From Bacteroidota bacterium (lineage in GTDB: Bacteria > Bacteroidota > Bacteroidia > Flavobacteriales_D > Sanyastnellaceae): a DNA stretch of 64,000 nucleotides. Numbering within the stretch: the stretch's first letter is position 1; each line of letters begins with the position of its first letter. Where the stretch lies: contig NVXE01000008.1 of the NCBI GenBank assembly GCA_002746975.1, positions 95,667 through 159,666 of the forward strand, in the 5' to 3' direction. Both the position numbers and the translations under genes were made by a program. The notes beneath the pieces were generated by a model. The model saw only the letters and a list, made by a program, of their open reading frames with translations, searched no databases and was not told the origin of the DNA. This document shows positions 14,834 through 63,710 of the stretch, piece by piece.

Positions 14834-14865
14834 TTGAAAGAAATCAGAAGAATGACGTATTTTCG
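14834..14865 (+). promoter_or_regulatory. Bacteroidota promoter TTG-N21-TATTTTCG
   Basis: TTG at 14834-14836 and TATTTTCG at 14858-14865 are separated by 21 bases, matching the known -33/-7 layout. The box ends five bases before ATG 14871, so the transcript would have almost no leader. Confidence 0.6.
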
Positions 14866-14870
14866 TGTCG

Positions 14871-17800
14871 ATGAAAGCAGTTCGCAAATTCATAATTCTA
14901 TTCCTATCAACAATTACTGTTCTAGTTAGCTCTAACGAAGTAATGGCCCAGTTTTACGATGGATTGCAAGTGGAATATGGAAAGAACCGTGTACAATATA
15001 GAGAATTCTTTTGGCAAAGTCATACCGTAGGTCATTTTGAAATTTACTTCTACCAAGGTGGTCATGAATTAGCGGGTGCTATTGCAGGAATTGTAGATCC
15101 TATTGCAAAAGAGTTAAAACCCTTTTTCGGAAACAGCTTAGATGGACCTATTCAAATTATCGTTTACAATAATATTGCTGAATTTCGTCAGAGTAATATC
15201 GGAGTATTCTCTGAAGATGAGGAGAGTGAGAATATTGGAGGAACAGCAAAAATAATAGGAAATAAAATTTTCTTGTACGGACGGGGTGACAGGGCAGCTC
15301 TTGAACGCGACTTAAGAGGCGGACTAGCAAGAATTGCACTTCATCAAACCATTTACAAGGGCGATTGGCAAGATGCTCTTAAAAATTACAGTATGCTACA
15401 GATTCCCGATTGGTTTAGCGAAGGGTTAATCGAGTATCTAGCAGAAGAGAAATCATCAAGGTCTAAAATCAACATTTTCGATGCTGCAAGGTCAGGCGCT
15501 CTTAATAACATTGACAGAAGTGAAGGTGATGAGGCTGGAAAACTAGGAAATGCCGTCTGGGATTACATTGCAGACGTTTATGGAATTCCCGCCATTGCTA
15601 ACGTGTTGTACATGGTAAGGATTAGCCGTAGTGTTGAGGGGGGATTTAGGTTCGCCACTGGATTAAATTTATCCAGTCTTATGTCTGAGGTGATTTCATA
15701 CCAAACCTCCCAAACCCCAATTAATTATTCCTCTAAGTTGCCTCGTATTGAAACGCGAAAAGAAAAAAAACACTCAAAAAGGGATGGGGGCGATTTGCCC
15801 TTTTTATTAAAGAAACGATACAACTATGTCTCTATAAAACTGTCTCCTGATGGTAAGACATTCGCTTTTATTACTGATGAGAGAGGGCAAATGCGAGTTT
15901 GGACCTGCGAGATAAATGATAAAGAGATGACGAGTGGAGAAAATCAGTTCACTATCACGAAACGAGCTCAACACGGCAATAAGCTAGATCAAATTATTAG
16001 CGACATCCCTCCTCCTATTGCATGGCACCCCGACGGAAAGAAATTCACTTATTCTACAAGTGAAAAAGGCTCTCCCATTCTAGTCACAGTAATACTTGAC
16101 GAGAAGAAGATTATAAAAAAAGACCTCTTTCGAATAGACGAAGTTCTGTCAATGGACTATTCACCTGATGGGAAAAGCATAGTGTTTTCAGGTATGCAGA
16201 ACGGTATTTCCGACTTATACCTTTATCGTGTAATAGGAAATCTACAGGAACCACTTTGGAGAGATAGGTTCGATGACTTAAACCCCCGTTTTACTGAAAA
16301 TGGTCTCTCCATTATTTTTTCGTCTAATCGTAGCGATGAAGTTTTAAGGGGGGATAGAGAAAATATCCCCTTTAACAAGCAGTTAGATATTTATTTATGC
16401 CACCTCGATGAGAAAACTCCTTATTTAGAACAACTGGTAAAAACTCCAAGAATTGACGAACGATTTCCAATACCTCTTCCAAATAGAGAATTCGTGTACC
16501 TTTCAGAATACGAAAATGGAAATCAAGAAACTAGTTGGGGTTGGGCAGATAGTACCATACTAAGTATCGACACTATTATTCGATATAGACACTTTTTCGA
16601 TACTAGAGTTATATCCGAATTAGATATTCCCATAAGTAGTTTGGATTGTGATACTTTAAGTGGAGTATGCTATGGCAACTCTACTGTTATGAGACATTCA
16701 TATAGAGTAGATATAGGGAAAATGCCTCGTACTAAAGACAGGACATCAGGCGTATTTAGTGTTTCAACCCAAAATATAAATCTAAATACCGGGTTTATCC
16801 CCCCTGATTGGACTGAGAAATTCGAATCTACTGATGCCGATATTAGAAATTATAAGTTTGAATTTGAGAGTCGGATTGAAAAAGCTCAGTTTTCAAATAA
16901 AAACAATTCTGAAGATACAGTACTTACATCTAATAACGAATCAGCTGATACTCTAGTTGCCTCTATACGACTTAAGCCAGTACACTACAGGCTGAACTTT
17001 TCTCTTCAGAAATTACAGAGTCAAGTTAACAATACATTCGGCTCTCAATTCTATAGAGCATATGATGGAACTACTTCATTTAATCCTGGTCTAGGGAATG
17101 CAACAGAAATACGAATTAGTGACTTATTTGATGACTATCACATAATTGGAGGGTTTAACATTCCCGCAAATTTGAGTAATACTCTTGTAGGTTTGGCTTA
17201 TTACGACTTGAGTGGCAGAGTGGATAAAATGATTTCATTTCAACGTCAAGGAAAAACTGGAATTGATCCTTTGTCATATAATATACTCGAGACCCAATCA
17301 CATTTCGCTCAGTATCGACTCACTTTTCCTGTTGATGAAGTTAGAAGTCTGAGGGCTTCCATGGGTCTAAGGCTCGATAGAGCTGTCACCCAAGGCACTG
17401 AGATGTTCAGCTTGACTACTCCTAATTCTTGGACAAACCAAATCGGTTTTAAGCTCGCTTGGGTAAAAGATAATTCCCGAAGTCCCGCTCTAAATATCAT
17501 GGAGGGGACAAGAGCAAAAGTTTGGGCAGAGTATTACTTAGATGGATTTGATAAGAGTTTCGGAACAATAGGGTTCGATTTAAGACACTACGTAAAAATA
17601 TATGCAAACGCAATAATTGCTGTTAGAGCAGCTGGAAATTGGTCCATCGGCGAGCTTGCTTTATTAAATTTACTTGGGGGAACTGATAACAGCTTGTCGT
17701 TGGGTAACAACTACGGTACACCTATTGACACCAAACAATCTTATGCTTACCAAGCAAACATAACTCCTATGCGTGGGTTTGCGAACAACGCTAGAAATGG

Positions 17801-18161
17801 ATCTAACGCAGCTATTTGCAATGTCGAATTAAGAATTCCCCTTTGGAGTACGTTATTCTCAGAACCATCAAAAACAGATTTTATTCGAAACCTTCAGATG
17901 GTTGGTTTTGCCGATGTGGGAAGTGCTTGGACAGGCCTAAACCCATACTCTGACGACAATACTTTTAACTCTACGGTCTATGAAAATAATCCAATCACTG
18001 TAACCATCAATAACAATAAAGAACCTATCATTTACGATTTTGGATTCGGGTTTCGTTCCAGAATGTTCGGGTATTGGGTAAACGCAAATTGGGGTTGGGG
18101 AGTTGATGATAATATAATTCTGCCTAGCCGTTTCTCCCTTAGCTTAAATTTTGATTTCTAG
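14871..18161 (+). CDS. Giant secreted protein: degenerate peptidase, WD40-like propeller and outer-membrane barrel
   Basis: A 1096-residue protein with a signal peptide (cleavage near VMA-Q, about residue 26). Residues 45-195 resemble gluzincin (peptidase MA) domains: the helix DLRGGLARIALHQTIY (147-162) stands where HExxH should be, and IPDWFSEGLIEYLAE (178-192) is the typical downstream helix. The zinc-binding HExxH is missing, so it is probably inactive. Residues 320-560 hold TolB-type propeller repeats (LSPDGKTFAFITDE, YSPDGKSIVFSG). The last 400 residues look like a BamA-type surface-antigen barrel (LNLLGGTDNS, TPMRGFANNA) ending in Phe. It probably sits in the outer membrane; the role is unknown. 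A GTG at 14865 lies inside the promoter and is rejected. Confidence 0.82.
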   Translation: MKAVRKFIILFLSTITVLVSSNEVMAQFYDGLQVEYGKNRVQYREFFWQSHTVGHFEIYFYQGGHELAGAIAGIVDPIAKELKPFFGNSLDGPIQIIVYNNIAEFRQSNIGVFSEDEESENIGGTAKIIGNKIFLYGRGDRAALERDLRGGLARIALHQTIYKGDWQDALKNYSMLQIPDWFSEGLIEYLAEEKSSRSKINIFDAARSGALNNIDRSEGDEAGKLGNAVWDYIADVYGIPAIANVLYMVRISRSVEGGFRFATGLNLSSLMSEVISYQTSQTPINYSSKLPRIETRKEKKHSKRDGGDLPFLLKKRYNYVSIKLSPDGKTFAFITDERGQMRVWTCEINDKEMTSGENQFTITKRAQHGNKLDQIISDIPPPIAWHPDGKKFTYSTSEKGSPILVTVILDEKKIIKKDLFRIDEVLSMDYSPDGKSIVFSGMQNGISDLYLYRVIGNLQEPLWRDRFDDLNPRFTENGLSIIFSSNRSDEVLRGDRENIPFNKQLDIYLCHLDEKTPYLEQLVKTPRIDERFPIPLPNREFVYLSEYENGNQETSWGWADSTILSIDTIIRYRHFFDTRVISELDIPISSLDCDTLSGVCYGNSTVMRHSYRVDIGKMPRTKDRTSGVFSVSTQNINLNTGFIPPDWTEKFESTDADIRNYKFEFESRIEKAQFSNKNNSEDTVLTSNNESADTLVASIRLKPVHYRLNFSLQKLQSQVNNTFGSQFYRAYDGTTSFNPGLGNATEIRISDLFDDYHIIGGFNIPANLSNTLVGLAYYDLSGRVDKMISFQRQGKTGIDPLSYNILETQSHFAQYRLTFPVDEVRSLRASMGLRLDRAVTQGTEMFSLTTPNSWTNQIGFKLAWVKDNSRSPALNIMEGTRAKVWAEYYLDGFDKSFGTIGFDLRHYVKIYANAIIAVRAAGNWSIGELALLNLLGGTDNSLSLGNNYGTPIDTKQSYAYQANITPMRGFANNARNGSNAAICNVELRIPLWSTLFSEPSKTDFIRNLQMVGFADVGSAWTGLNPYSDDNTFNSTVYENNPITVTINNNKEPIIYDFGFGFRSRMFGYWVNANWGWGVDDNIILPSRFSLSLNFDF

Positions 18162-60530: not shown

Positions 60531-61106
60531 ATGGATTCATTACCGATAATCGATATAGTTTTAATAATTATTTTAATCTGGGGAGGAATTTCTGGATTTA
60601 GAAAAGGGTTAATCCTTTCTTTAGCTTCTTTTGTAGCAATTATTGCCGGAGCTCTTGCAGCTTACTATGGATCTGACGCTATTGCAGTAGAGTTAGTAAC
60701 TGAGGTGGATTGGTCCCAAAAGCAAATCGCTGTTGCTTCTTTTGCCATTGCGTTTTTAGGGGTGGTATTACTTGTACACTTGTTAGCTAAAGTTTTGGAA
60801 AAAGCACTAGACATTGTAGCTCTAGGGTTTGTGAATAAAATTTCAGGCGCCATTTTTGGAATGGCAAAAAACGCACTTCTTCTTACGTTTGTGATATTTG
60901 GATTAAAGGGGTTAGGTGATTATATCCCTGAAGATGTCGATGAAGAGTGTGTCGTATATCCCGTTGTAGAGTCAATTGCGCCTTTAGTTCTTCCGTATTG
61001 GGACGATTTTAAGGAAAAGACAGACCTTGAAAATCTGAAAGACAGAATTGAAGATAAAGTCGATGACGTAAAGGAAAAATTAGAGCCCCTGAAAGGCGCT
61101 GAATAA
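60531..61106 (+). CDS. CvpA-family membrane protein
   Basis: A 191-residue inner-membrane protein with four helices in the CvpA pattern (IDIVLIIILIWGGISGFRKG, LASFVAIIAGALAAYYGSD, AFLGVVLLVHLLAKVLEKAL, ISGAIFGMAKNALLLTFVI) and a charged helical C-terminal tail rich in Lys/Asp/Glu. The E. coli homologue is needed for colicin V production and stress tolerance; the molecular role is unknown. Its coding end overlaps the end of the convergent fusion gene by 27 bases. Confidence 0.9.
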   Translation: MDSLPIIDIVLIIILIWGGISGFRKGLILSLASFVAIIAGALAAYYGSDAIAVELVTEVDWSQKQIAVASFAIAFLGVVLLVHLLAKVLEKALDIVALGFVNKISGAIFGMAKNALLLTFVIFGLKGLGDYIPEDVDEECVVYPVVESIAPLVLPYWDDFKEKTDLENLKDRIEDKVDDVKEKLEPLKGAE

Positions 61107-63710
61107 TTCCTGGACTTGTTTTGCAAGTTCCGTTCTTTTAGAAATATAGTCGTCCTTTTCTGAAAGCACCGTGTTAACACTGACGTAGAATTTTATTTTC
61201 GGCTCAGTACCTGAAGGGCGTACCGTGATTCGAGACCCCTTTTCTGTAACGAACTGAAGAACGTTAGATTTAGGTAGGTCGATATTTGTAACGGTCGAAG
61301 AAATAAGGTCGTGATGTTCGTGAGATTCGAAATCGAGAAAGGCAACAACTTTTTCCCCAGCGATATTTTCAGGAATCGAAGTTCTAAACCCAGACATCAT
61401 ATCTGATATTTCCTGTGCACCATCTATTCCCTTTTTCACTATTGCCACTAATCCCTCTTGATATAGTCGGAACCTCCTATGAATTTGTTCTAATTTAGAG
61501 AGCATGGTTTCCCCAGATTCTTCAAGAGAATGGGCCAATTCTGAAAGCACACAACATGCAGAAACCGCATCCTTATCACGTGCAGTATCCTTAATCAAAT
61601 ACCCATAGCTCTCCTCTGCACCTACTATAAACTGCCGCTTCCCTGACTCCTCAGCTATAGCAGCAGCGATGTGCTTAAATCCTGTCAATGTAGTTCTCAC
61701 CCCTAGACCAAACCCTTTTCCTATTTCTGCTAAAAGTGGTGATGTTACTACTGTCGTAGCTACAAAATCCGAAGAATCATAAATCCCTCCATCTGCTCTA
61801 CCACATCGAAGTACATAATCAAATAGTAAAGCCCCTGTTTCATTTCCATTAAGAAGTTGAAATCCTCCTTCGCCATTAGGTACTGCTAGTCCTACACGAT
61901 CTGCATCTGGGTCTGTCCCCATTACTAGTAACGCTCCCACTTTCTCTCCTAGCGAGATCGCTTCTGAAAGAGCCTGCCCTTCTTCAGGATTAGGACTCGA
62001 TACAGTGGGGAAACTACCATCCGGTACTGCTTGAGATTCAACCTCGTGCACGTTTGTAAACCCAAATGCTTTAAGTGCGGGCGGGACACTTACAGAGCCC
62101 GTGCCATGAAGTCCGGTAAAAACCAAACACGCTCGAGACCCTTTTTTTGCAAGTGACTCGGATCGTCTTAACTTTAATATCTCGCTTCTATAGCCCTCGT
62201 CCAAATAACTTCCCAATAAAGTAATCAATTCCTCCAATTCAATATCAACGCTCGACATCTTCACGTCTGAAATGGACTTTATTTTCCTTACCTCAGATAT
62301 TATCCCAGCATCGTGAGGGGCTACGATTTGGGCTCCATCATCCCAATAAACCTTGTAACCATTATATTCTGGCGGATTGTGTGAAGCGGTAATTACAACA
62401 CCAGCTACGCATCCCATTTTACGAACGGTATAGGAAAGTTGAGGTGTAGATCTCAATTCCGGATAGAGTAGAGCTTCAATACCGTTACCTGCCAGAACAC
62501 GAGCTGTCACCTCCGCTAACTCAACACTTTGGTGCCTACAATCATATGCAATTGCTACTTTTTTATGAGCAGCAATCTGATTTTCTCCACCCTGAGATTT
62601 TATGTAATTCACTAAACCTTGAGTAGCCTGAGCAATAATCGAGTTGTTAATCCTATTAGTGCCTGGTCCGCAAATGCCCCTAATGCCACCTGTCCCGAAC
62701 TCAATGTCCTTATAGAAAGCTTCCATTAAAACCTCCTTCATGTCTTCATCTAGCCACATTCGTACAGCAGCCCTCGTTTCGCTGTCGTATGGTTCTTTAG
62801 TCCAAACCTCTGCTCTTTTCTTTACCCTTTCGTATTCACTATCTAAACACATAACTAATGACTCTTTCCAATTCCTTTTCTCAAGACATAACAACTCCCT
62901 AAGCTCGGCCCCCCCCAAATGAGAATTCATAGGTCTAATTGCTCTTGTAGGGTATTCTGAAGATGTAATCCCTAGAACCTCAACATCCATTTTTAATTCC
63001 TCAAAAATACTTCTTGCGAACGAAGCCCAGCACGTTACACCCTCATCACTAAAGTGATAAATTCCACTCTTCAAAGTCTCAAAAGAATTCACCCAAGCAT
63101 AAATCGCTTCTGAAAGCGAACCTGTATATGTGGGAGTCCCCCTTTGGTCATAAACTACTTTAATTTCATTCCTATCACTACCTAACTTCACCATAGTAGT
63201 TAAAAAATTCTTCCCTACACGATCGTAAAGCCATCCAGTTCGAACGATAAAATATCGACCTTCCCCACCATCCATAACCGCTTCAATAGCGCGCTCTCCA
63301 GCCTCCTTCGACCTCCCATAAACACCTAGCGGAGCAACAGTATCTCTCGCCTCATACGGTTTATCTTCAGTCCCTCCATCCTCTCCGTTAAAAACGTAGT
63401 CTGTACTAATGTGCAATAATCCCACGCCCCTTTTTACACAAGCCTCAGCAATAAATCCCGGCGCCCTAGCATTTACATCCCACGCCCCCTCAATATCGCC
63501 CTCTGCATCATCGACCGCAGTATATGCCGCTGCGTTAATGACAACGTCGGGATTCTCTAAATCGAGAACCCTTTCAATCTCCGAAAGATTCGTGATATCC
63601 AAATCCGTTCTAGAATAACCCACAAACTGAACCTCGCTATCTCCTTCGTATTGCCTAATAAGGCAACTACCTAATTGCCCTCCTGCTCCAAATACTAATG
63701 CTCTTTTCAC
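61080..63710 (-). CDS. Fusion of RmlD-like dTDP-4-dehydrorhamnose reductase and phosphosugar mutase
   Basis: An 876-residue protein in one open frame joining two enzymes. Residues 1-286 are RmlD-like: NADP-binding GAGGQLG (8-14), AAYTAVDDAE, STDYVFNG, the catalytic Tyr131-x3-Lys135 (YGRSK) and YDQRGTPTYTG. Residues 288-876 are a complete phosphoglucomutase/phosphomannomutase with FGTGGIRGICGPGTNRIN, the phospho-Ser443 (TASHNPPEYNGYK), the metal loop GTDPDADR (598-605), GAEESYGYL and the C-terminal RPSGTEPKIKFY. An in-frame ATG at 62852 (residue 287) marks the junction and could allow a second product. Start GTG 63710. Glucose-1-phosphate and dTDP-rhamnose synthesis would be linked. Confidence 0.9.
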   Translation of the reverse strand: MKRALVFGAGGQLGSCLIRQYEGDSEVQFVGYSRTDLDITNLSEIERVLDLENPDVVINAAAYTAVDDAEGDIEGAWDVNARAPGFIAEACVKRGVGLLHISTDYVFNGEDGGTEDKPYEARDTVAPLGVYGRSKEAGERAIEAVMDGGEGRYFIVRTGWLYDRVGKNFLTTMVKLGSDRNEIKVVYDQRGTPTYTGSLSEAIYAWVNSFETLKSGIYHFSDEGVTCWASFARSIFEELKMDVEVLGITSSEYPTRAIRPMNSHLGGAELRELLCLEKRNWKESLVMCLDSEYERVKKRAEVWTKEPYDSETRAAVRMWLDEDMKEVLMEAFYKDIEFGTGGIRGICGPGTNRINNSIIAQATQGLVNYIKSQGGENQIAAHKKVAIAYDCRHQSVELAEVTARVLAGNGIEALLYPELRSTPQLSYTVRKMGCVAGVVITASHNPPEYNGYKVYWDDGAQIVAPHDAGIISEVRKIKSISDVKMSSVDIELEELITLLGSYLDEGYRSEILKLRRSESLAKKGSRACLVFTGLHGTGSVSVPPALKAFGFTNVHEVESQAVPDGSFPTVSSPNPEEGQALSEAISLGEKVGALLVMGTDPDADRVGLAVPNGEGGFQLLNGNETGALLFDYVLRCGRADGGIYDSSDFVATTVVTSPLLAEIGKGFGLGVRTTLTGFKHIAAAIAEESGKRQFIVGAEESYGYLIKDTARDKDAVSACCVLSELAHSLEESGETMLSKLEQIHRRFRLYQEGLVAIVKKGIDGAQEISDMMSGFRTSIPENIAGEKVVAFLDFESHEHHDLISSTVTNIDLPKSNVLQFVTEKGSRITVRPSGTEPKIKFYVSVNTVLSEKDDYISKRTELAKQVQELFSAFQGL

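Follow-up and report, generated by a model that had tools for sequence, protein, structure and literature searches.

Fusion of an RmlD-type reductase with a phosphohexomutase in a single reading frame of Bacteroidota

Known rhamnose enzymes and the fused gene

In the synthesis of dTDP-rhamnose, RmlA uses glucose-1-phosphate and RmlD performs the final reduction (PMC9415975). Multifunctional enzymes that join consecutive steps of rhamnose synthesis have been described, namely the RmlC/RmlD fusion of Prymnesium parvum and the NRS/ER and RHM proteins of plants; RmlC/RmlD, NRS/ER and RHM proteins are eukaryotic, with NRS/ER types also being viral (PMC6556577). The protein considered here resembles these in that an RmlD-type reductase is chained to another enzyme of rhamnose synthesis, yet it is found in bacteria, its partner is a mutase that stands upstream of RmlA, and it possesses no epimerase/dehydratase domain (a domain search for RmlC or RmlB returned just RmlD's own weak SDR cross-match). 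We found no description of an RmlD-phosphosugar mutase fusion in the literature searched, in agreement with an earlier note made from this DNA alone, which was aware of no characterised fusion of this type. We regard the gene as joining two familiar enzymes in a new way; its novelty is real but modest, and its most interesting aspect is its independent repetition.

The gene lies in a window of 64,000 nucleotides (the whole stretch of DNA that was analysed, part of contig C5 of genome G000). Read as an open frame, positions 61080..63710 of the reverse strand, on which all features of the gene given below are also found, form a single uninterrupted frame of 876 codons that encodes RmlD followed by a phosphohexomutase (876 aa; GTG start at 63710-63708, stop at 61082-61080). 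The RmlD half (residues 1-288; 62847..63710) is matched by fold and by the Pfam profile RmlD_sub_bind (PF04321; residues 3-291, 287 bits, E = 1.5e-85), and the fused protein passes the curated cut-off of the rmlD equivalog model TIGR01214 (274.4 bits against 224.05). Its NAD(P)H-binding GxxGxxG motif, recognised by sequence and alignment, reads GAGGQLG (residues 8-14; 63669..63689), with no variation at G8, G11, Q12 or L13 across the 15 fused sequences aligned. The catalytic YGRSK site, located by alignment (residues 131-135; 63306..63320), acts with Thr103, and the triad T103, Y131 and K135 is invariant in 65 sequences (15 fused and 50 unfused). Judged by profile and motifs, this half is a predicted dTDP-4-dehydrorhamnose reductase.

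The phosphohexomutase half (residues 290-876; 61083..62843) contains all four domains of the PGM/PMM superfamily in order at residues 336-843 (PGM_PMM_I, II, III and IV; PF02878, PF02879, PF02880 and PF00408), a fold match, and all four active-site loops. These are the phospho-serine Ser443 (62382..62384) within TASHNPPEY, invariant in all fused sequences; the metal loop DPDADR (residues 600-605; 61896..61913), where D600, P601, D602, D604 and R605 are invariant; the sugar-binding loop GAEESYGY (residues 697-704; 61599..61622), where G697, E699, E700, S701, G703 and Y704 are invariant; and the phosphate-binding loop RPSGTEPK (residues 831-838; 61197..61220), likewise invariant. Over both halves, the 15 fused sequences preserve GxxGQLG, T103-D-Y-V-F, Y131/K135, TAS443HNP, D600PDxDR, GxEESxGY and RPSGTEPK without change or nearly so. 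The earlier reading of one frame holding a complete RmlD-like reductase (YGRSK) and a complete mutase (phospho-Ser443, GTDPDADR) is upheld by domains and motifs alike. With its four domains and four loops, the mutase half belongs to the PGM/PMM superfamily of the GEESYG type common in Bacteroidota, from which it differs in being preceded by RmlD and in scoring above the cut-off of none of the NCBIfam mutase equivalog models. In fold comparison its predicted model resembles PGM, PMM/PGM and phosphopentomutase structures, and sequence features do not discriminate among these three as to its substrate.

We consider it very probable that the gene encodes a bifunctional enzyme, the single chain of which combines an RmlD reductase with an alpha-D-phosphohexomutase, and that it was produced by loss of a stop between adjacent genes. 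The mutase half would interconvert glucose-6-phosphate and glucose-1-phosphate, and perhaps mannose phosphates as well; the separately encoded RmlA, RmlB and RmlC would convert glucose-1-phosphate to dTDP-4-keto-rhamnose; and the RmlD half would reduce the latter to dTDP-rhamnose. We infer both enzymatic activities, the substrate of the mutase and whatever benefit the fusion may bring. It is possible that the chain is cleaved after translation into separate enzymes. Elsewhere in the window, a frame of 1098 aa on the forward strand (14865-18161) has a WD40-like PD40 repeat as its sole Pfam match.

Conservation of the fused frame within the genus

When relatives were searched, the same in-frame fusion was found in 13 of the 14 genomes of the window's genus, that is, in every one that covers the junction. 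A complete frame spanning both enzymes is present in 12 of them; in G013 the junction is present and the contig ends inside the mutase, and the fourteenth genome, G010, holds a mutase fragment only, with the junction uncovered. The same fusion is carried by Flavobacteriales bacterium UBA2619 (L039), which was left out of the genus count. Fused relatives within the genus are 58-84% identical to the window protein.

An assembly or sequencing error that hides a stop at the junction was a concern of the earlier note, as was the prospect that relatives always keep two separate genes. The first concern has some foundation, given that eight consecutive C (62909-62916), a classic site for indels, lie in the frame near the junction. 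However, the conserved reading SHLGG..LR...W..L..C stays in frame through this homopolymer, and 12 other assemblies have the identical in-frame junction, which rules out an indel at the homopolymer as the source of the fusion. Moreover, dN/dS (from pairs with unsaturated silent sites only) lies well below 1 on either side of the junction, at approximately 0.12-0.18 in RmlD and 0.06-0.12 in the mutase. Both halves are under purifying selection and have consequently been kept working, and we consider an artefact scarcely credible. The second concern is dispelled for the genus itself, though elsewhere the pair usually consists of separate, neighbouring genes.

The earlier note had further suggested that the mutase may also be made alone from an internal ATG at 62852. 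This codon (Met287; 62850-62852) is indeed present in 10 fused sequences, all of one branch of the genus. However, the methionine sits within the terminal helix of RmlD (W..SL.MC), and it is absent from the deep branch of the genus; G003, G012 and G008 have Gln, Glu or Leu instead. In G008, moreover, there is no ATG, GTG or TTG from 75 to 3 codons before the mutase core (73 codons), leaving it with no start codon across the junction, and no aligned internal start occurs in the two fused genes of a second genus described below (G120 and G123). An internal start is thus ruled out as a conserved feature, and separate production of the mutase from this ATG appears very unlikely.

Separate gene pairs and the origins of the fusion

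In the other genera of the family, rmlD and pgm usually lie next to each other as separate genes, in an unchanged order, and reading of the DNA of 47 adjacent pairs in the family revealed a stop between the genes. Such pairs, known also from other Bacteroidota, share with the fused gene both components, their order and, in near genera, the locus beside a CvpA-type gene, whereas in them a stop divides the two open frames. In the window this neighbour is a CvpA/Colicin_V-type membrane protein gene on the forward strand (60531..61106; PF02674, 92 bits), convergent with the fused gene and overlapping its 3' end by 27 bp with its own 3' end (61080-61106). Since it adjoins the fused gene across the genus, and in L013, L017 and L018 the unfused pair, this is an orthologous locus, at which the two genes fused in place. 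Adjacent rmlD-pgm pairs extend to Bacteroidales and to one other family of the class (L040, L041, L048, L056, L061, L077, L112 and L159), so that the fusion has a far narrower distribution than the gene pair. Three further genomes (G021, G102 and G106), which an open-frame listing had suggested as carriers of fusions, were rejected because their DNA, when read, has a stop separating the two genes.

A second fusion occurs in a different genus of the family, in two species (G120, contig C80, 149017-151506, locus L119; and G123, contig C320, 515-3028, locus L120), each in one frame, of 863 and 877 aa respectively, with motifs intact. In the trees these fused genes group with unfused members of their own genus (g11) and not with the window's genus; this holds for G123 in the RmlD tree, which was first built without G120, and for both in the mutase tree, where placement and the approximately unbiased (AU) test relied on a quick tree. 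The AU test rejects trees that unite all fusions in a single clade, and does so for both halves (mutase, p = 1.2e-5; RmlD, with G120 included, p = 0.014), and the fused state requires two changes on the RmlD tree and two on the mutase tree. Furthermore, the junction of G123 is tighter than that of the window's genus, and several residues shorter. One ancestral fusion followed by several later splits would need more changes than two fusions, and we set it aside; the fusion in G120 and G123 most probably arose independently of that in the window's genus, two origins being the shorter account. No further fusion was detected among 395 genomes sampled from the class and 395 from the phylum at E <= 1e-175, a threshold that misses very diverged fusions, and 80 named loci yielded none beyond the one from the window's genus.

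The junction and its place in the pathway

In unfused relatives, RmlD ends soon after a W..SL..C motif, with a tail of approximately 5-20 residues following it. According to the junction alignment, the fused protein lacks this tail and passes straight into the first mutase helix, with no linker and no added domain. In an AlphaFold2 model, the last helix of RmlD and the first of the mutase are predicted to form one continuous helix (residues 281-302; 62805..62870), the junction blocks having a pLDDT of 66-76; the model, built from a 15-sequence alignment, is of moderate confidence overall (mean pLDDT 79, pTM 0.61), and its placing of the halves relative to each other is unreliable. Its RmlD half matches solved RmlD structures with TM-scores of 0.84-0.94 over the target, those for 1vl0, 3sc6 and 4wpg being 0.90-0.94. 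Under the bifunctional reading, the stop between two nearly overlapping adjacent genes would have been lost in place and the RmlD tail trimmed, such that the last RmlD helix would run on as the first mutase helix.

Metal-dependent dimeric RmlD of the Salmonella type is characterised by the dimer motif E1-PLG-E/D2-E3 (PMC4832382). The fused protein lacks this motif at the E1 and E2 positions compared: the metal-bridging glutamates E15 and E190 of the Salmonella enzyme correspond to Cys16 and Gly197, and in all fused sequences the E1 position is C, F or R and the E2 position is Gly. Acidic residues are rare at these positions in unfused relatives too (6 of 50 at E1 and 1 of 50 at E2). By the criterion of that study, the fused RmlD is predicted to belong to the monomeric class (PMC4832382), in which case the addition of a C-terminal domain would not necessarily interfere with a dimer. 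It shares with monomeric RmlD of the GacA type (PMC4832382) the fold, T103/Y131/K135, a score above the TIGR01214 cut-off and the lack of the E1/E2 glutamates, but bears a whole phosphohexomutase at the C-terminus, where the other ends.

These features bear on whether the fusion has brought any gain. A variant of the bifunctional reading, differing from it only in the matter of benefit, holds that a stop was lost by chance between genes coupled in translation and that the fusion persisted since it harmed neither enzyme, with no advantage. Among 48 adjacent pairs (the 47 in the family, and G566/L159 from a different one), the distance between the stop of RmlD and the ATG of the mutase is -29 to +36 nt, frequently a 4-base overlap, and 25 of these pairs have both genes in one frame, so that fusion is mutationally close; the bare junction and the apparently monomeric RmlD (PMC4832382) also fit with such an origin. 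Weighing against it are the lack of visible reversal in any sampled genus genome that covers the junction and the fact that the fusion arose twice, although each of these is compatible with neutrality too. We view a neutral origin as a serious candidate, albeit one that falls somewhat short of probable.

A search elsewhere in the genome found rmlA, rmlB and rmlC present but scattered, all over their cut-offs: rmlA on contig C5 (177361-178206; 469.8 bits), approximately 18 kb from the fused gene, rmlB on C4 (16216; 469.7 bits) and rmlC on C3 (165601; 216.2 bits). Six genomes of the genus were tested: each has full-score RmlA and RmlB, and RmlC is missing from one only, the incomplete G012. The fused RmlD is the sole RmlD match over the cut-off, and the only other phosphohexomutase in the genome is a GlmM-like protein; the fused mutase therefore probably serves every pathway that needs glucose-1-phosphate.

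The earlier note proposed that the fusion joins both ends of the dTDP-rhamnose pathway. This is accurate in so far as the two halves stand at the two ends and rmlA-C are present, but RmlA, RmlB and RmlC act between them and are neither fused nor adjacent; the phrase is a description of parts and not a mechanism, and any coupling of the ends would be a further step. That the middle three enzymes are encoded elsewhere and the joined steps are not consecutive also tells against the pathway sense of the bifunctional reading itself. Physical coupling of the ends for regulation or flux, for example through a complex with RmlA-C or feedback on the supply of glucose-1-phosphate, might be argued from the presence of rmlA-C, and from a near-overlapping pair that is kept across the family and has fused twice, which suggests a recurring advantage of joint production. 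Yet repeated fusion is expected simply from genes that nearly touch and often share a frame, the steps are not consecutive, rmlA is distant and rmlB and rmlC lie on other contigs, and the mutase must also feed other pathways. We thus regard such coupling as unlikely. A recurrent architecture in which a rigid helical junction ties supply of the starting sugar to completion of activated rhamnose, perhaps as a scaffold for RmlA-D, also seems to us unlikely. For the bifunctional enzyme that we favour, the likely consequence would be that two sugar-nucleotide enzymes are made in a fixed 1:1 ratio and kept in one place, as opposed to direct hand-over of an intermediate.

The fusion provides direct evidence, of the "Rosetta stone" type, that the rmlD-pgm pair of Bacteroidota is a functional unit, and helps to assign the generic "phospho-sugar mutase" of the phylum to the supply of glucose-1-phosphate for rhamnose and other envelope sugars. 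Moreover, two independent fusions of nearly touching genes in one family offer a clean natural case of coupled genes becoming one protein, and whether their origin was selected or neutral is a testable question.

A loosely kept linkage was also observed at this locus: rmlA lies approximately 15-20 kb from the fused gene in six genomes (G000, G003, G005, G008, G011 and G012), with rmlB and rmlC on other contigs.
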